Part shown: piece by piece, positions 17,589 through 28,974 of the stretch | Position numbering within the stretch: the first letter of the stretch is position 1 | Layout of the letters: the number at the start of each line of letters is the position of its first letter | NCBI RefSeq assembly: GCF_015711015.1 | Contig: NZ_CP064653.1 | Location: 930,001 to 994,000, forward strand | From: Methylomonas sp. LL1 | GTDB taxonomy: Bacteria; Pseudomonadota; Gammaproteobacteria; Methylococcales; Methylomonadaceae | DNA length: 64,000 nucleotides | Direction: 5' to 3' | Notes under the pieces: generated by a model | Told to the model about the DNA's origin: nothing | Databases searched by the model: none | What the model saw: only the letters and a program-made list of their open reading frames with translations | Position numbers and translations under genes: made by a program

Positions 17589-18284
17589 ATGGCTAAAACC
17601 AATCCCGTCATTATTTTGATTGAAGATGATCCGCCGATCAGGCGTTTTTTACGTACCAGCTTGGCCTTGCATGAATTTATCGTATTCGAAGCCGACTCGG
17701 GTAAACAAGGCCTGATTGAAGCCGGCGTGCGTAAACCGGATTTGTTGATACTCGATCTGGGACTGCCGGACATGGATGGCGTCGATGTGATCAAGGCCAT
17801 ACGTGGTTGGTCGGCCGTGCCGATCATCATCCTCTCCGCCCGTAGCAACGAGCAACAAAAAATCGAAGCCTTGGATGCCGGCGCGGACGATTATCTGACC
17901 AAACCGTTCGGATTCGGCGAGCTGTTGGCGCGAATTCGGGTGGCGCTACGCCATTCGAGCCGGCCCATGGAGCAAGTCCAGGCCGATGTGTTTAATATCG
18001 ACAATCTGAAAGTAGATTTCCTGAATCGGTTGGTGAGCCTGGATGACAAGGAAGTTCATCTGACCCCGATTCAATACCGCTTGCTTTGCGTGCTGATCAA
18101 ACATGCCGGCAGGGTATTGACCCATCAGCAGATTTTGAAGGAAGTATGGGGGCCGTCCTATCAGGAGAATCCGCATTATTTGCGGATTTACATGAGCCAA
18201 TTACGGCAAAAGCTGGAAGCCGATCCGACCCAACCCAGGTATTTGCTGACCGAATCCGGCGTCGGTTATCGGTTCAAAATTTAG
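17589..18284 (+). CDS. kdpE: Response regulator KdpE
   Basis: OmpR/PhoB-type regulator of 231 aa that activates the kdp operon. The receiver domain has the acidic pair (EDD), phospho-acceptor Asp56 (LILDLGLPDMDG) and the conserved Lys (LTKPFGFGELLARI). The C-terminal winged helix ends with RYLLTESGVGYRFKI. It follows kdpD by 24 nt and closes the kdpFABCDE set. No T-rich terminator was seen after it before the convergent gene at 18428. Confidence 0.97.
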   Translation: MAKTNPVIILIEDDPPIRRFLRTSLALHEFIVFEADSGKQGLIEAGVRKPDLLILDLGLPDMDGVDVIKAIRGWSAVPIIILSARSNEQQKIEALDAGADDYLTKPFGFGELLARIRVALRHSSRPMEQVQADVFNIDNLKVDFLNRLVSLDDKEVHLTPIQYRLLCVLIKHAGRVLTHQQILKEVWGPSYQENPHYLRIYMSQLRQKLEADPTQPRYLLTESGVGYRFKI

Positions 18285-18427: not shown

Positions 18428-20650
18428 CTAAAGTACCTGGGGGCCCAGTACCCGCAGCACCTCGTCACAAGTGGTCAGCCCCTGGCTGACTTTTTCGACG
18501 GCATCGTCGAGAATGGTTTTATAGCCGCTGGCGATGGCTACTTTCTTGAATTCCAGATGGCCCGCCTGCCTGACTATCAGGTCGCGCATTTCTTCGTTGG
18601 GTATCAGTAGCTCGAATAAACATAGGCGGCCGTGATAACCGCTATTGCCGCAACGTTCGCAGCCCTTACCTTTAAATAGCGGTTGTCGGAGGCTGACAAA
18701 CCCTGGTCCGAGTTGTTGTAGTAGACTGGTATCCACCGGGTCGGGCGCTTTGCAATGCTCGCAGATACGCCGTACCAGCCGCTGGGAAATAATGCCTTCC
18801 AGGCTGCTGGATAGAATATAAGGTTTCAAGCCCAGGTCAAATAAGCGGGCAATGGTGGCAATGGCCGAGTTTGTGTGCAGGGTCGAGAACACCAAGTGGC
18901 CGGTCAGGGCGGCTTGAAAAGCCACTTCAGCAGTTTCCAGGTCGCGAATTTCGCCGAGCAGAATCACATCCGGGTCCTGCCGTAAAATAGCCCGCAACAC
19001 CACCGGAAAGGTCAGTTCGATTTTGCCCTTGATATTAACCTGGCCGGCGGCATCCAGATAATACTCGACCGGTTCTTCGAGGGTAACGAAGTTTTTGGTC
19101 GGTGTCGCCCCATGCTGCAAAAACGAATACAGGGTAGAGGTCTTGCCGCTACCGGTCGGCCCGGTACACAGAATAATGCCCTGCGGTTTATTGATCAGCC
19201 TGTCGATCTTGAGCAGATCGTCCGCTGAAAATCCCAGTTTGTCGATAGGCTGGATCGAGGCGTTTTGATCTAGTATCCGCATCACTACTTTTTCGCCGTT
19301 GATGATCGGCAAGGTCGAGATGCGCAAATCGATAATCCGGGTGGGGGTTTTTACGGTCACCCGGCCATCCTGGGGCCTGCGGCGTTCGGAGATATCCATC
19401 TCGGCCATGATTTTGATCCGCGACACCAGCGGTCCATGAAAGTGGTGAGGGAAATAAATCTTGTCCTGCAAAATGCCGTCTATCCGGTAACGCACCACCA
19501 CATTTTTAGCTCGCGGCTGAATATGAACGTCGCTGGCGCCCAAGTGAATCGCTTCTATGATCACGGCGTTGACCAAACGAATGGCCGGCGGCTCGGCGGT
19601 TTGTTGCAATAGCTGGCCGAGCGGCACGGCATCGTCTTCTTCGATGATGATCTGGATGCTTTCAAAGGGATCGTTACCGTTAACGATTTGGTCGACATCG
19701 TTAAAACTATGCACTGCGCCGTACACTTCATCGATTTTCTTCTGAATGTCGGCGACATTGGCCATCACGACTCGCAGCGACAAACCACTCATGAAGCGCA
19801 GTTCGGCTTGCAAATCCATATTGACCGGATCGGCCATCGCCAATAGCAACAGGCCGCTTTCGATTTTTAACGGCAATACCGCATGTTGTTCGCAAATCGA
19901 ACGGGGCAACAGGTTGTGCACATCCGAATCGATTTGAAATTCGGCCAGCGAGACTTCTTCCACCATCAAGTCTTTGCGTAAAATCGCCCGGATAGCGGAT
20001 TCATCGACCCATTGCCGGTTCAGAATCAGCTTTAGCATCGATTGATTGCTGTTTTGTTTGAGCTTGAACAGTTCCTGCAGTTGGTTGTCGCTGAGCAGGT
20101 TTTTTTTGTTGAGCAGGATGGCGATCTCGCCGCTATCGGAGCCTATCAGTTTTTTTAGGCTTTTGATTTCCTTGGTTTTGTTGTTGTTATCGACCTTTAG
20201 CTTATTGTTCTTTTCGATCAGGTCGTATTGCTCGAGCGCCAGACCGACGGTGATGCGCAAATCATCGTCGTTCCAAGGTTTTAGAATGAATTTGTAAACC
20301 GCGCCCTCGTTTATGGCCCCCAGCACCGCGCCGGTATCGGCTTCGCCGGTTAGCATGATACGGATGGTGGCCGGATGCAGGGCCTTGACCCTTTTTAGCA
20401 GTTCAGCTCCGTTCATGACAGGCATCTTATAATCGGAAATTACCAGTTGATACGGATTATCCTTGAGTAATTGCAGAGCCTCCGCGCCGGACAGAGCGGT
20501 ATCGATGTGGTAGTTTTCGCGGCGGAATATCCGGCGTAACGCACTCAGGATGTTGGGTTCGTCGTCGACAAACAGGATCCGGTAAGCGGCTTTTGCCGCA
20601 TGGTCTTCCTCGGCATTGCCGCCGGTAAACAGCGAGCTATAGCGTGACAT
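18428..20650 (-). CDS. Receiver-domain fused PilB/GspE-type ATPase
   Basis: A 740-aa fusion. Residues 23-140 are a CheY-like receiver with phospho-acceptor Asp73 (VISDYKMP) and the conserved Lys-Pro (ILKPW). A charged, probably coiled-coil linker covers about 145-170. Residues about 200-310 look like an MshEN/T2SSE N-terminal domain, a fold that binds c-di-GMP in some members. The rest is a type II secretion/type IV pilus ATPase with Walker A GPTGSGKT (497-504), Walker B DPDVILLGEIRD (559-570), the His box TGHLVFSTLHTN and a zinc-type set at Cys630/633 and Cys664/667. All motor motifs are intact, so it should be an active hexameric ATPase. No pilin, platform or secretin genes are adjacent. 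It is last in an operon with the kinase upstream. Confidence 0.9.
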   Translation of the reverse strand: MSRYSSLFTGGNAEEDHAAKAAYRILFVDDEPNILSALRRIFRRENYHIDTALSGAEALQLLKDNPYQLVISDYKMPVMNGAELLKRVKALHPATIRIMLTGEADTGAVLGAINEGAVYKFILKPWNDDDLRITVGLALEQYDLIEKNNKLKVDNNNKTKEIKSLKKLIGSDSGEIAILLNKKNLLSDNQLQELFKLKQNSNQSMLKLILNRQWVDESAIRAILRKDLMVEEVSLAEFQIDSDVHNLLPRSICEQHAVLPLKIESGLLLLAMADPVNMDLQAELRFMSGLSLRVVMANVADIQKKIDEVYGAVHSFNDVDQIVNGNDPFESIQIIIEEDDAVPLGQLLQQTAEPPAIRLVNAVIIEAIHLGASDVHIQPRAKNVVVRYRIDGILQDKIYFPHHFHGPLVSRIKIMAEMDISERRRPQDGRVTVKTPTRIIDLRISTLPIINGEKVVMRILDQNASIQPIDKLGFSADDLLKIDRLINKPQGIILCTGPTGSGKTSTLYSFLQHGATPTKNFVTLEEPVEYYLDAAGQVNIKGKIELTFPVVLRAILRQDPDVILLGEIRDLETAEVAFQAALTGHLVFSTLHTNSAIATIARLFDLGLKPYILSSSLEGIISQRLVRRICEHCKAPDPVDTSLLQQLGPGFVSLRQPLFKGKGCERCGNSGYHGRLCLFELLIPNEEMRDLIVRQAGHLEFKKVAIASGYKTILDDAVEKVSQGLTTCDEVLRVLGPQVL

Positions 20651-20662
20651 AGATGGTGGTTG

Positions 20663-21907
20663 TCATGATGAGGCTTGACGAACCGGTTTCAGCGGCAAGA
20701 CGATGCTGACCAGCGTGCCGACATTGGGTTTGCTTTTGATTGCCAAGTTGCCGCCATGGGCCTGAATGATATTGCGGCAGACCGTCAAACCCAAGCCCAT
20801 GCCTTTTCCAACTTCCTTGGTGGAAAAAAACGGATCGAATACATGCGGCAGATCGGTTTCGGCAATACCGCAACCGTTGTCGCGCACTTCGATGTGAATC
20901 CGCTGATCCTTGGAATAGGTGCGAAATTGAATCATACCGGTGGTGTTGATCGAATCGACTGAATTGATCAGCAGATTCAAGAATGCTTGCCCCAGTTCCC
21001 CTGGCTGACAGTAAAAAGGCGGCAGCACGGCTAAATCCAACGATAACTTGACTTTGTCGCGTAATTCGGCGATGGCGATATTACAAATTTGCCGAATGAT
21101 TTGATTCAAATCGGCGCTTTCCCGAGCGGAATCGTTGATGCGGGAGAAGCCTTTTAAATCCTTGACGATGGCGGCGATTCGCTCGGTACCCTGGATGCTC
21201 TCGTTGAGAATATCCTGCATATCCTGCTGTACAAAAGCCATATCCTCGGCTTGCCAGGCGGCTCGTAGCGCGGCAGTGTTGGCGCTAGCCTCGAACAGTA
21301 CTCCGATTTTTTTCAGTGATTCCAGGTAACCGACCGCAGTCGTCAGATTACTGCGGATAAAACCGATCGGATTGTTGATCTCGTGAGCAATGCCCGCCGC
21401 CAAACGTCCGACCGAGGCCAGCTTTTCGCTTTCATAGAGTTTCAGTTGCGCGCTTTCTATGGTTTTGACTTGTTGTTCGACCCGTTGCTCCAAGGTTTCG
21501 GACAAGGCTTTATAACGTTGTTCGGATTTTGCCAGGGCGAGATGCCGGCGTTGCAGTTCCTCATAATCGGCGCGCTGGGTTTGCAGATGCAAATCGGAGG
21601 CCATCAGGTAACGGGCATTGGTGCGCAATAACAAGGTCAACAGTTCCGCTGCCGCTTGAAGGTGTTGCGGCGCGACATCGGCGTTCAGGCTGCCTATGGC
21701 TTCCAGTTCAACGATGATCGGTAGACAGGGGGCCTCTCGCGTTACTTCAGTCTCGCCTAGCAGGCGGACCCCCTTGGTATCGAAGATCGCCAGCGGGGCA
21801 TTCAGCAGGCCTTGCAAGGCGGAGAGCAGGCGGCGGCCATCGATACCGCGCAATAAGTCGTCTAGCGCCAGTTCCCGCTCGAAATCGTTGAAGGGTTCGG
21901 TCGACAT
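20663..21907 (-). CDS. Soluble sensor histidine kinase
   Basis: A 414-aa kinase without membrane segments. The N-terminal ~95 residues form a small domain of unknown type (LDDLLRGIDGRRLLSALQ). A coiled coil (about 115-165) leads to the H box AGIAHEINNPIGF with phospho-acceptor His175. The ATPase part has N box LNLLINSVDSIN, G1 DNGCGIAETD and G2 GKGMGLGLTVCRNI. I chose the ATG at 21907, two bases past the stop of the GTPase gene; a TTG at 21913 would overlap it. With no other regulator nearby, its likely target is the receiver domain of the ATPase encoded 12 nt downstream. Confidence 0.9.
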   Translation of the reverse strand: MSTEPFNDFERELALDDLLRGIDGRRLLSALQGLLNAPLAIFDTKGVRLLGETEVTREAPCLPIIVELEAIGSLNADVAPQHLQAAAELLTLLLRTNARYLMASDLHLQTQRADYEELQRRHLALAKSEQRYKALSETLEQRVEQQVKTIESAQLKLYESEKLASVGRLAAGIAHEINNPIGFIRSNLTTAVGYLESLKKIGVLFEASANTAALRAAWQAEDMAFVQQDMQDILNESIQGTERIAAIVKDLKGFSRINDSARESADLNQIIRQICNIAIAELRDKVKLSLDLAVLPPFYCQPGELGQAFLNLLINSVDSINTTGMIQFRTYSKDQRIHIEVRDNGCGIAETDLPHVFDPFFSTKEVGKGMGLGLTVCRNIIQAHGGNLAIKSKPNVGTLVSIVLPLKPVRQASS

Positions 21908-21909
21908 GA

Positions 21910-22575
21910 TCAAGTTACCTCATTGCCTAACTGCCCGGTGGATTGCCGGATGAATTCGTCGCGAGACAGCTTGTGGGTTTGTTGAAAATCAAATTCCTGA
22001 TTCAGATTGTCATACACTTGAAGCAGTAGAGCGTTGAAGGTTTCTATCACGCCGCGGCCGTCCAGCGCGGCGCTGAACACAACCGGCCAAGGTGCCTCCC
22101 GCCAACGGTCCATGACTTCGTCTTCGCTCAGAATATTGGCCATGTCGCGTTTGTTGAATTGCACCACTAGCGGCAGATGATCAAAGTCTATGCCGACGCG
22201 GGCGGCGTTTTCTTCCAGATTGGCAAAGGCCTCGCCATTGTTGATGCTTTGGGTGCGTTGCGAGTCGGCGACGAACACCACGCCGTCGGCGCGCGACAAT
22301 ACCGCCTTACGGGTGCTGTCATGCACAACCTGGCCCGGCACGGTGTAGAGCTTGAACTTGATCAACAGACCCGATGGCGCCTTAAAACCGACCGGTAGCA
22401 AGTCGAAAAACAGGGTGCGGTCGTTGGCGGTCTCCATCATCATGATTTCGCCCTTCAGATCGGTACGCAGCAGGTCGTGTAGCCGCATCAGGTTGGTGGT
22501 TTTACCGCTCTGCGCCGGGCCGTAATATACCAGTTTGATGCTCAAGCGCTTGTTTTCGTCGTCGTATAATGCCAT
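21910..22575 (-). CDS. MglA-like small Ras-type GTPase
   Basis: A 221-aa GTPase resembling MglA, the bacterial polarity switch that controls type IV pili and gliding in Myxococcus. Visible motifs are the P-loop GPAQSGKT (19-26), TLFFDLLP, the DxxG-equivalent LYTVPGQV typical of MglA, the GVVFVADSQ strand and NKRD (141-144). An MglB/roadblock partner gene, the usual GTPase-activating protein, is not visible in the window. First gene of a three-gene operon whose last member is a pilus/secretion-type ATPase, which strengthens the MglA comparison. Confidence 0.9.
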   Translation of the reverse strand: MALYDDENKRLSIKLVYYGPAQSGKTTNLMRLHDLLRTDLKGEIMMMETANDRTLFFDLLPVGFKAPSGLLIKFKLYTVPGQVVHDSTRKAVLSRADGVVFVADSQRTQSINNGEAFANLEENAARVGIDFDHLPLVVQFNKRDMANILSEDEVMDRWREAPWPVVFSAALDGRGVIETFNALLLQVYDNLNQEFDFQQTHKLSRDEFIRQSTGQLGNEVT

Positions 22576-23039: not shown

Positions 23040-23345
23040 TTATTTTTCGAACAGTTTTTGCGAGAAAAATCCAATCACCGCAATTACGATTAAACCGGAA
23101 AAAACGGCTAACCCAATTTCATCTTCTTTTGCGACTTGATGGCTTCTTTTGGCGGCCAGAACCGAGGCGGATGTTCGGCCATCAACGGAATAGCCCGCTT
23201 TCAACGTGGCAATTTTTGAAGATTTTTCCGTGGGTTTTGCCGGGCCGGCTTCTAAGGACTGGGTGGCTGCAGTGCTTGTTCCCAAGATTGAAACCATCAT
23301 CAATAGAGCCAAAAGTAAACCTTGTAAACTGAAAAAATGTCTCAT
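23040..23345 (-). CDS. Small exported or membrane protein, unknown function
   Basis: A 101-aa protein with an N-terminal signal peptide or anchor (FFSLQGLLLALLMMVSILG, with a possible cleavage after STA), a middle part rich in Ala, Lys and Ser, and a C-terminal membrane segment (about 78-95) ending in a basic tail. The two-ended layout suggests an inner-membrane protein with a periplasmic loop. It lacks the Pro-Glu-Pro signature of PEP-CTERM proteins. Family not recognised. It sits alone beside an AT-rich stretch. Confidence 0.6.
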   Translation of the reverse strand: MRHFFSLQGLLLALLMMVSILGTSTAATQSLEAGPAKPTEKSSKIATLKAGYSVDGRTSASVLAAKRSHQVAKEDEIGLAVFSGLIVIAVIGFFSQKLFEK

Positions 23346-25335: not shown

Positions 25336-28300
25336 ATGCAAAATCAGCAAACACTTACCATTGACGGCAACCAGGCCGCGGCTAGCGTCGCGCATAAATT
25401 GAACGAAGTGATTGCCATTTATCCGATTACGCCTTCGTCGGCAATGGGGGAGTGGGCGGACGAATGGTCATCGCGCGGGCAGAAAAACCTCTGGGGTACC
25501 GTACCCCAGGTCATCGAAATGCAGAGCGAGGCCGGCGCGGCCGGCACCATACATGGCGCGTTGCAGGCCGGTACCATGGCCACCACCTTTACCGCCTCGC
25601 AGGGCTTGCTATTAATGCTGCCCAATATGTACAAAATCGCCGGTGAATTAACCCCGACGGTGTTTCATATCGCCGCGCGGTCGCTGGCTTGCCAGGCCTT
25701 GTCCATTTTCGGCGATCATAGCGACGTAATGGCGGCGCGCATGACCGGTTTTGCGATGCTGTGCTCCAACTCGCCCCAGGAAGTACAGGACTTCGCCTTG
25801 ATCGCTCACGCCGCCAGTTTGGAAGGCCGAATTCCGTTCATGCATTTCTTCGATGGTTTTCGAACCTCTCACGAAGTGGCCAAATTGGTGACCATTGATG
25901 ACGGCGTGCTGAAGGGCATGATCGATCAGGAATGGATTAGCGCATTCCGTAACCGGAGTTTGACGCCTGATCAGCCGATGTTGCGCGGCACCGCCCAGAA
26001 TCCCGACGTGTATTTTCAAGCCAGGGAAGCGGTTAATCCGTTTTATCAAGCATTGCCCGGCATTGTGCAGCGGGCAATGGATAGGTTCGCCGGTTTGACC
26101 GGCCGCCAATATCATTTGTTTGATTATGTCGGATCGCCCGATGCGGAGCGGGTGATAGTGCTGATGGGCTCGGGAGCCGAAGCGGTGGAAGAGACTCTGG
26201 ATTATCTCAATCGTCACGGTGAATCAGTGGGTATGCTGAAAGTACGGCTATACCGGCCTTTCGCGGCAGATGGTTTGATTGCGGCGCTGCCGGCCAGTTG
26301 CCGCAAGATTGCGGTATTGGATCGCACCAAGGAACCCGGTTCCGATGGCGAACCCTTGTATAAGGACGTGTTGGGCGCCATTGCTCAGGATGTTATTGCC
26401 GGCAATGGCAAATTTTCAGTGATGCCTAAAGTCGTCGGTGGCCGTTACGGTTTATCGTCGAAGGAATTCACGCCGGGCATGGTCAAGGCAATTTTTGACC
26501 AACTCAACAACGATCGGCCCAAGAATCATTTCACCATCGGCATCGATGACGATGTGTCCAACAGTAGCTTGCCATGGGATGCGGGTTTTAGAACCGATGT
26601 ACATGCCGACATTTTTCAGGCCATGTTTTACGGCCTTGGTAGCGACGGCACGGTTGGAGCCAATAAAAATACTATTAAAATCATTGGCGAAGAAACGGAA
26701 GATTTTGCCCAAGGCTATTTTGTCTATGACTCGAAAAAGTCCGGCGCGATTACCGTATCGCATTTGCGTTTTGGCTCCAAACCCATTAAATCGACATATT
26801 TGATCGGCGAAAACGACGCCAATTTCATCGGCTGCCATCAAACTATCTTTCTGGAACGTTACGACATGTTGATCAACGCCGCCGACAACGCGGTATTCTT
26901 GTTGAACACGCCGGAGCCAGTGGATCAGGTCTGGGACAGCCTGCCCAAGAAGATGCAAGAGCAGATGCTGGCCAAGAATATCCGTTTTTTTGTGATCGAT
27001 GGTTATGCGGTGGCGGAAAACTGCGGGATGGGGAAACGCATCAATACCATCATGCAGACCTGCTTTTTTGCCATTTCGGGCGTGTTGCCTCAGGATCAGG
27101 CGATTGAGGCCATTAAACATGCGGTCGAAAAGACTTACGGTAAAAAAGGCCGTCGTATCGTTGAGTTAAACTTCAAGGCTATCGATGACACACTGGCCGG
27201 TTTGCATCAGGTGACTTTACCAAAGCATACCAGCAGCAACTTCGACATCATGGACCATGTTGCCGAATCGGCCCCTGACTTTGTCAAACGCGTCACCGCC
27301 GAAATCATCGCCGGGCGCGGTGATTTACTGCCGGTCAGTGCGATGCCCATAGACGGCACATTTCCAACCGGTACCACCGCCTATGAAAAACGTAATCTGG
27401 CACTGGAAATTCCGGTCTGGGAAATCGACTTATGTACCGAATGCGGTAAGTGTGCGATGGTTTGCCCGCATGCCTCCATACGCAGCAAAATCTATCCGCT
27501 CGAAGCCCTAGACAATGCGCCGGCCACTTTCAAGCATGCGCCGATGCTAGGCAAGGATTTTCCGGCCGGTTTGGCGATGACCTACCAGGTAGCGCCGGAA
27601 GACTGTACCGGCTGCAGTTTGTGCGTGGACATCTGTCCTATCCGCGACAAATCCAATGCCAGCCGCAAGGCCTTGAACATGCGTCCGCAAGCGCCGCTGC
27701 GCGAACCGGAGCGTGAAAACTGGGATTTCTTCCTGTCACTGCCGGAATACGATAGGCGTCATTTGAAAACCAACACCATCAAGGGGGCAATGGTGTTGCA
27801 GCCTTTGTTCGAATTTTCCGGCGCCTGTGTCGGTTGCGGCGAAACCCCTTATATCAAACTGGCTTCGCAATTGTTCGGCGACCGGATGATAGTCGCCAAC
27901 GCCACTGGCTGTTCATCAATTTACGGCGGTAATCTGCCGACCACGCCTTGGACTAAAAACAGCGAAGGCCGAGGTCCGGCCTGGAGTAATTCCTTGTTCG
28001 AGGATAATGCCGAGTTTGGTCTGGGCATGCGGGTGTCTATCGATAAACAGACTGAATTTGCAACCGAACTACTGTCGAGTCTGCGTGAACCATTAGGTGG
28101 AGAGTATGTCGATGCCGTCCTGCAAGCCGATCAATCGGACGAAGCCGGTTTATACGAGCAACGTCAACGCGTGGCGGAATTAAAACAGCGCCTGCAAGCC
28201 ATGACAGAGCCCGCCGCAAAAACACTGCTAGAACTGGCCGATTATTTATGCAAGAAAAGCGTCTGGATCATCGGCGGCGACGGCTGGGCCTATGACATCG

Positions 28301-28974
28301 GTTACGGTGGTTTGGATCATGTGCTGGCCAGTGGTCGTAACGTGAATATCCTGGTGCTGGATACCGAGGTTTATTCCAATACCGGTGGCCAAACCTCCAA
28401 ATCCACGCCGCTGGGGGCGGTGGCCAAGTTTTCCGCCAGCGGTAAAGCCACGGCAAAAAAAGATCTTGGCTTGCTGGCCATGGATTACGGTAATGTCTAT
28501 GTGGCGCATGTGGCCTATGCCGGCAAAGACATTCAGACCCTGAATGCGTTTATCGAAGCCGAAGCGCATGACGGGCCATCCATCATCATCGCCTATGCGC
28601 CTTGTATCGCGCACGGAGTGGATATGTCCAACAATCATCGCCAGCAAAATTTGGCCGTGAAAAGTGGTCACTGGCCGCTGTTCCGCTTCAATCCGAATCG
28701 GATCAAGCAAGGTAAAAATCCGATGCAACTGGATTCGGCGGAACCCTCTATCCCGTACCGGGAATTTGTGATGAGCGAAACCCGCTTCAGCATGCTTTGG
28801 CAGTCCCATCCGGATGCGGCCGAAGCCTTTTTACAGCAGGCCCAGCAGGATGTGAAAAGCCGCTACCGTTATTACAAACAACTGTCGGAGCTGGAATGGA
28901 ACGAAGCCACCAGCGTTTCGGCGGTAAAAGCGCAGCTGATTACCGAAACTGCCAAGGAGACTCAAAATGGTTGA
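25336..28974 (+). CDS. nifJ: Pyruvate:ferredoxin (flavodoxin) oxidoreductase
   Basis: Single-chain 1212-aa PFOR that interconverts pyruvate + CoA and acetyl-CoA + CO2 with reduced ferredoxin or flavodoxin. Domains in order: the pyrimidine-binding domain (AIYPITPSSAMGEWADEW), the transketolase C-like part, the gamma domain, a ferredoxin-like pair of 4Fe-4S motifs (CTECGKCAMVCPH near 700; CTGCSLCVDICPI near 757), and the TPP domain with CVGCGETPY near 831, GGDGWAYDIGYGG near 979 and NTGGQTSKSTP. All cofactor residues are present. The enzyme is oxygen-sensitive in most hosts, and the reduced electron carrier it makes can serve nitrogenase. It overlaps its downstream partner by 8 nt. Confidence 0.97.
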   Translation: MQNQQTLTIDGNQAAASVAHKLNEVIAIYPITPSSAMGEWADEWSSRGQKNLWGTVPQVIEMQSEAGAAGTIHGALQAGTMATTFTASQGLLLMLPNMYKIAGELTPTVFHIAARSLACQALSIFGDHSDVMAARMTGFAMLCSNSPQEVQDFALIAHAASLEGRIPFMHFFDGFRTSHEVAKLVTIDDGVLKGMIDQEWISAFRNRSLTPDQPMLRGTAQNPDVYFQAREAVNPFYQALPGIVQRAMDRFAGLTGRQYHLFDYVGSPDAERVIVLMGSGAEAVEETLDYLNRHGESVGMLKVRLYRPFAADGLIAALPASCRKIAVLDRTKEPGSDGEPLYKDVLGAIAQDVIAGNGKFSVMPKVVGGRYGLSSKEFTPGMVKAIFDQLNNDRPKNHFTIGIDDDVSNSSLPWDAGFRTDVHADIFQAMFYGLGSDGTVGANKNTIKIIGEETEDFAQGYFVYDSKKSGAITVSHLRFGSKPIKSTYLIGENDANFIGCHQTIFLERYDMLINAADNAVFLLNTPEPVDQVWDSLPKKMQEQMLAKNIRFFVIDGYAVAENCGMGKRINTIMQTCFFAISGVLPQDQAIEAIKHAVEKTYGKKGRRIVELNFKAIDDTLAGLHQVTLPKHTSSNFDIMDHVAESAPDFVKRVTAEIIAGRGDLLPVSAMPIDGTFPTGTTAYEKRNLALEIPVWEIDLCTECGKCAMVCPHASIRSKIYPLEALDNAPATFKHAPMLGKDFPAGLAMTYQVAPEDCTGCSLCVDICPIRDKSNASRKALNMRPQAPLREPERENWDFFLSLPEYDRRHLKTNTIKGAMVLQPLFEFSGACVGCGETPYIKLASQLFGDRMIVANATGCSSIYGGNLPTTPWTKNSEGRGPAWSNSLFEDNAEFGLGMRVSIDKQTEFATELLSSLREPLGGEYVDAVLQADQSDEAGLYEQRQRVAELKQRLQAMTEPAAKTLLELADYLCKKSVWIIGGDGWAYDIGYGGLDHVLASGRNVNILVLDTEVYSNTGGQTSKSTPLGAVAKFSASGKATAKKDLGLLAMDYGNVYVAHVAYAGKDIQTLNAFIEAEAHDGPSIIIAYAPCIAHGVDMSNNHRQQNLAVKSGHWPLFRFNPNRIKQGKNPMQLDSAEPSIPYREFVMSETRFSMLWQSHPDAAEAFLQQAQQDVKSRYRYYKQLSELEWNEATSVSAVKAQLITETAKETQNG

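Follow-up and report, generated by a model that had tools for sequence, protein, structure and literature searches.

What could be the purpose of an operon in which an MglA-type GTPase and a soluble histidine kinase are encoded next to a pilus- or secretion-type ATPase that carries a phospho-receiver of its own? Such an operon lies on the minus strand of the window (the whole 64-kb stretch of DNA analysed, C2:930001-994000 of the window genome). The GTPase gene comes first (21910..22575, 221 aa); it is followed after 2 nt by the histidine kinase gene (20663..21907; 414 aa counted from the ATG, the ORF list beginning two codons earlier at a TTG) and, after 12 nt more, by the gene of a REC-MshEN-T2SSE ATPase of the PilB/GspE family (18428..20650, 740 aa). 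The preliminary description of this DNA had claimed three adjoining genes with these gaps, and the ORFs, frames and gaps are all as claimed; there is no fourth gene in the operon. The operon is convergent with kdpE (17589-18284). Upstream are a 101-aa ORF (23040-23345) with a signal-like start and no match in Pfam or NCBIfam, a short-chain dehydrogenase-like ORF and a large ORF (25336-28974) that reads as pyruvate:ferredoxin oxidoreductase; the names of kdpE, the dehydrogenase and the oxidoreductase come from reading the sequence. Maximum hydropathy over 19-residue stretches is 1.36, which is below the transmembrane level in all three proteins of the trio. As stated earlier, there are no local MglB or pilus genes: neither a T2SSF platform gene nor a roadblock/MglB gene was found in the 64-kb window, those of the window genome being located far away.

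The GTPase has a Pfam match to Arf (4.2e-7), and its best solved relatives are MglA of Thermus (E 5e-41) and of Myxococcus (about 1.4e-40 to 1.5e-40), over residues 6-190. By these matches it is a member of the MglA family of small GTPases, as its initial reading as a polarity-type GTPase had it. We observed the P-loop GPAQSGKTTN and the NKRD motif. The intrinsic Arg53 (codon 22417-22419, minus strand) and Gln82 (codon 22330-22332, minus strand) bear the same numbers as the two catalytic residues of MglA (PMC6785124) and are invariant across ten aligned orthologues. No coupled MglB/roadblock GAP gene occurs in the window within a few genes of the GTPase. Roadblock proteins are present elsewhere in the window genome; in two other carriers of the trio (G078 and G093) none was detected genome-wide at E 0.01, thus a classic MglB is not required as a partner. 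Another type of small GTPase (MSQYKIIFTGPVGAGKTTA, 179 aa), unrelated in sequence to the trio, is encoded near a roadblock protein in the window genome (C2:4556300-4559200, L166:7301-9397), and in other family carriers, too, GTPases of this type have roadblock genes as neighbours.

The second protein has matches to HATPase_c (3.7e-24) and HisKA (1.2e-5) and no transmembrane-grade stretch, in agreement with the soluble kinase described before. It has the hallmarks of an orthodox histidine kinase (DHp His, N-box and G-boxes): in ten aligned orthologues the predicted phospho-acceptor His175 (codon 21383-21385, minus strand) and N315 are invariant, and DNG at 343-345 and GxGLGL are invariant or nearly so. 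The N-terminal domain (about residues 1-110; 21578..21907, minus strand) is the least conserved part and is predicted to consist of two helices, four strands and a long helix (model pLDDT 84). Fold comparison of the model gave Z 7.4 to GAF 3hcy (2.6 A, 85 residues) and Z 6.1 to roadblock MglB 3t1r (2.4 A, 74 residues); as modelled, the fold is tied between GAF and roadblock/MglB. Neither assignment is backed by sequence: profile comparison with roadblock proteins was negative, a profile search of PDB sequences gave nothing, and the domain matched no sequence family.

The third protein is, as the preliminary description had it, a pilus/secretion ATPase with an N-terminal phospho-receiver. Its Pfam matches are Response_reg (6.6e-24, residues 25-133, 20252..20578), MshEN (3.8e-20, residues 230-313, 19712..19963) and T2SSE (2.5e-126, residues 351-733, 18452..19600), all on the minus strand; the receiver and the motor domain are the best conserved parts. 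The receiver is RpfG/HD-GYP-like (best NCBIfam receiver match NF053512) and, in the alignment, has the complete set of response-regulator residues: the acidic pair D29 and D30, the phospho-acceptor Asp73 (codon 20432-20434, minus strand), T101 and K124 are invariant in ten aligned orthologues. Likewise invariant in these ten are Walker A (GPTGSGKT), the GEIRD box and the four C-terminal cysteines; with intact Walker A, GEIRD/His boxes and four-cysteine zinc site, the motor domain fits the PilB/GspE extension ATPases as judged by its residues. The protein scored 550 bits against the type IVa PilB equivalog TIGR02538 (curated cut-off 676) and 534 bits against the GspE equivalog model, below the curated cut-off in both cases. 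The closest named relatives are from Methylomonas sp. WSC-6 (80%) and SURF-2 (78%), on which ground we take the window genome for a Methylomonas.

The MshEN match covers the C-subdomain; the N-subdomain before it (about residues 165-229) has lost its c-di-GMP motif residues. Of the tandem motif RLGxx..G..L..L..Q, 5 of 11 positions per half are kept, the level of the best chance offset, while the window genome's own MshE-like ATPase has the motif well kept (9 and 8 of 11 positions); the motif is degenerate in the REC-ATPases of the other carriers too, and also in the normal PilB of this genome. It is known that imperfect MshEN motifs can still bind c-di-GMP (PMC5013675). As the motif is absent, we rejected control of the REC-ATPase by c-di-GMP through MshEN; phosphorylation probably takes the place of c-di-GMP as the input to this ATPase.

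To what extent does the trio behave as a unit? In searches with each protein against 151 genomes of the family, full-length REC-ATPase, GTPase and close kinase matches were found in the same eight genomes, with the trio adjacent and in the same order in 8/8. A search of the GTPase profile against 369 genomes of the class gave seven strong carriers; the receiver-plus-linker of the ATPase, searched against the same 369 genomes, returned the identical seven (∼400 bits, open frames of 744-760 aa), all other matches of this search having ≤166 bits and covering the receiver part only. If carriers were drawn at random, such agreement would have a probability of 1/C(369,7) = 6e-15, a figure that ignores shared descent. 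The five class carriers outside the family belong to five different families, and GTPase, kinase and REC-PilB are adjacent there; in a phylum sample the trio was also seen in G639, G674 and G870, adding two further families. Over 15 loci the intergenic gaps range from -8 to 16 nt and from 1 to 39 nt, with the order kept. The preliminary description had staked its reading on the recurrence of the trio in relatives: co-occurrence is perfect and the order unchanged.

Values of dN/dS for the trio genes (0.03-0.20) indicate purifying selection. Pairwise distance matrices of the three proteins are correlated (r 0.89-0.91), which fits joint inheritance of these sequences, with the reservation that shared descent alone would also correlate. 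The REC-ATPases form one clade (support 100/100), apart from the T4aP PilB, T2SS GspE and MSHA MshE of the same genomes; by this grouping, the receiver joined the ATPase in a single ancestral event. The association goes beyond chance, because the carrier sets are identical and the genes are under purifying selection, and by these genomic data the trio is a real unit in scattered Gammaproteobacteria.

Incomplete forms also exist. Weak GTPase matches were seen in G186, without the rest of the trio, and in G485 (L165:8549-9236), where GTPase fragments are followed by the C-terminus of a REC-ATPase in a decayed remnant that looks as if left by a deletion through the kinase. In G881 (L202:4607-9759) GTPase and kinase are kept, and where the ATPase would be there is a protein of 1069 aa that has similarity to receivers and is EAL-like in part; judged from this locus, GTPase and kinase may as a pair have further outputs.

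In most relatives the trio is situated within a larger signalling island. Genes of the islands encode sensor kinases (hemerythrin-PAS or GAF-PAS), a REC-HD-GYP phosphodiesterase, a stand-alone REC, another REC extended at its C-terminus, and DUF6901. The most complete arrangement, seen in distant carriers, is sensor kinase, REC-HD-GYP, REC, GTPase, kinase, REC-PilB. The island receivers are 40-50% alike and the kinases 35-40% alike. Since several further receivers and kinases are encoded in the islands, phosphotransfer is probably branched. There are no other receivers beside the trio in the window genome, WSC-6 and SURF-2; in the latter two an EAL protein precedes the trio. The sensor kinases adjacent to the trio were considered as possible diguanylate cyclases, an assignment rejected upon Pfam analysis, which identified them as hemerythrin-PAS and GAF-PAS kinases.

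The window genome has a second locus (C2:1708200-1714470, L136:3204-9468) with genes for a hemerythrin-PAS kinase, REC-HD-GYP, DUF6901, a stand-alone REC and an orphan 593-aa MshEN-T2SSE ATPase, families that in relatives share one island with the trio. That this one genome has a stand-alone REC beside an ATPase here and a REC fused to an ATPase in the trio is suggestive of receiver control of such ATPases. DUF6901 (PF21842; L136:6281-7003 and orthologues) recurs beside the trio or its partner genes, has invariant cysteines (58, 61, 71 and 127) and is not mentioned in the literature searched. We rejected it as a PilZ-like protein or pilus adaptor, the best fold match of its model (pLDDT 84) having Z 4.1 and giving no lead.

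Next comes the question of which machine the ATPase could drive. The preliminary description had suggested looking at the pilus and secretion loci that accompany the trio: a T2SSF platform and PilT-sized ATPases are present in all eight carriers tested. The window genome (4.92 Mb) has seven extension-type ATPases and five T2SSF platform proteins, T2SS and MSHA-like loci among them. The distant carrier G380 (1.9 Mb, 99% complete) has a single T2SSF protein, the PilC of a PilB-PilC-PilD locus, while PilT and PilU are encoded at other sites; it also has a second orphan ATPase. Therefore, provided that REC-PilB acts as a motor, its likeliest machine is the type IVa pilus, as indicated by this one nearly complete genome. 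The carriers examined also have a normal PilB, thus REC-PilB is dispensable for pilus making as such. The orphan T2SSE ATPases of G380 (L189:3797-6220) and G392 (L192:7164-9599) belong to another type, about 810 aa long, whose N-terminus is unrelated and which forms a clade of its own.

We think it fairly probable that the trio kinase phosphorylates Asp73 of the ATPase, gating its action on the type IVa pilus, and that the GTPase gives a spatial or licensing input. In the scheme that we infer, which extends to the phosphotransfer from the trio kinase, the partner of the GTPase, the pilus as target and the sign of the effect, the operon would encode a dedicated, phosphorylation-gated auxiliary pilus extension motor (an auxiliary PilB) that needs no MglB. 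A cytoplasmic signal would be sensed at the small GAF/roadblock-like N-terminal domain of the soluble kinase, and phosphate would pass to Asp73 in the receiver part of the PilB-like ATPase. Phosphorylation would alter the docking of the hexameric motor on the PilC platform of the type IVa pilus, or its driving of that platform, and so do for REC-PilB what c-di-GMP does for MshE-type motors. The GTPase in its GTP form would recruit or permit the motor, as MglA does for PilB via SgmX in Myxococcus; it may also be read by the kinase or act on it. A branched phospho-network probably has the motor as one of its outputs; in the window genome, the other half of this network would be the second locus. 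In this form the trio looks like a ready-made kit for switching pilus growth on or off upon a signal. The initial proposal, phosphorylation control of a PilB/GspE motor tied to MglA, has gained from the co-occurrence, the kept order, the preserved catalytic and phospho-residues and the single fusion event. It was incomplete in that the larger module, of which the trio is only half, comprises other receivers and kinases as well, and its unspecified PilB/GspE machine gives way to the type IVa pilus as the likely output.

A more far-reaching variant, which we consider quite unlikely, takes the N-terminal domain of the kinase as a divergent roadblock-like partner of MglA: the kinase would read the state of the GTPase and pass phosphate to the receiver of the motor, replacing MglB, SgmX and c-di-GMP in a portable polarity-and-motor cassette.

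A serious rival, even if we judge it the less likely case, is that the trio kinase has its target elsewhere in the island, in the receiver of REC-HD-GYP or in the stand-alone REC, while the receiver of the ATPase is served by, e.g. the hemerythrin-PAS kinase; the trio would then be the remainder of a larger c-di-GMP circuit. The operon order of the distant carriers and the likeness among the island receivers and among the kinases speak for such branching, which is compatible with the auxiliary-motor reading. However, the window genome, WSC-6 and SURF-2 have the trio without adjoining receivers, so that kinase and REC-PilB appear as the pair that stays linked. Somewhat further down in probability, REC-PilB could be a signalling output and not a motor, with the GTPase as partner: when phosphorylated, it would enter mixed hexamers with normal PilB or sequester the latter, or report the state of the ATPase to surface-polysaccharide or c-di-GMP pathways. 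It is always extra to a normal PilB-PilC-PilD set where looked at, c-di-GMP enzymes surround it in relatives, and PilB of Myxococcus was reported as an exopolysaccharide signalling protein (PMC5544727); still, the invariant Walker A, GEIRD box and four-cysteine site in a highly conserved motor domain suggest that ATP hydrolysis is needed.

We see little chance of the ATPase being the motor of type II secretion or of an MSHA-type system. Although T2SS and MSHA-like loci are among the five platforms of the window genome and the GspE and PilB models score nearly equally, G380 has the trio with only a T4aP PilC, and the REC-PilB clade joins neither GspE nor MshE. As for chance neighbours or a decaying remnant with no joint function, the patchy distribution and the G485 locus, with its GTPase and ATPase fragments joined by deletion, could be cited in favor; for the unit as a whole this explanation is refuted by perfect co-occurrence and order in intact genes under purifying selection, and we give it practically no weight.

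Several known systems share parts of this design. In Myxococcus xanthus (MglA-SgmX-FrzS-SopA; PMC11580455, PMC7519303, PMC7668184) an MglA GTPase and a receiver-domain protein act on the extension ATPase PilB and license pilus growth, as we propose for the trio, MglA and SgmX recruiting PilB (PMC11580455). There, SgmX and the pseudo-receiver FrzS, which has no phosphorylation residues, are separate proteins, whereas the trio has a complete receiver fused to the ATPase; mglA is not beside these partners and MglB is the GAP, whereas the trio has the kinase gene in the operon and no linked MglB. The proposed working is similar to MglA-SgmX-PilB control, in a fused and portable form. The actinobacterial conservon CvnA-D (PMC4316618, PMC13343842) is also a conserved unit with a histidine kinase and an MglA-family GTPase side by side; it comprises a membrane kinase, a roadblock protein, CvnC and the GTPase, while the trio has a soluble kinase, no roadblock protein and no CvnC, and possesses the response regulator output that the conservon lacks. 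MglA-family GTPases near two-component genes are indeed known, from these conservons and from Group 3 systems (PMC4316618). MshE-type c-di-GMP-gated ATPases have MshEN in front of a T2SSE motor, as here, and MshEN-REC combinations have already been listed (PMC5013675); the trio ATPase differs by loss of the motif residues and addition of a phospho-receiver. In Xanthomonas (PdeK-PdeR-FimX-PilZ-PilB, PMC11656802) a two-component system and c-di-GMP turnover act on PilB, but indirectly, via FimX and PilZ, with no GTPase and with a PilB that has no receiver. A 2024 review of PilB cofactors (PMC11656802) mentions neither MglA, nor any GTPase, nor a receiver domain. Our literature search, which covered few subscription journals, found no description of a receiver-PilB fusion with linked kinase and MglA genes, in line with the earlier remark that no described system is built this way.

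In Myxococcus, where the recruitment of PilB to the pole by SgmX is mechanistically unexplained (PMC11580455), the route from MglA to the extension ATPase of the pilus has yet to be worked out. With GTPase, kinase and motor in one three-gene operon, the link between GTPase and motor becomes accessible with three purified proteins, and direct phosphorylation would join the known ways of PilB control.
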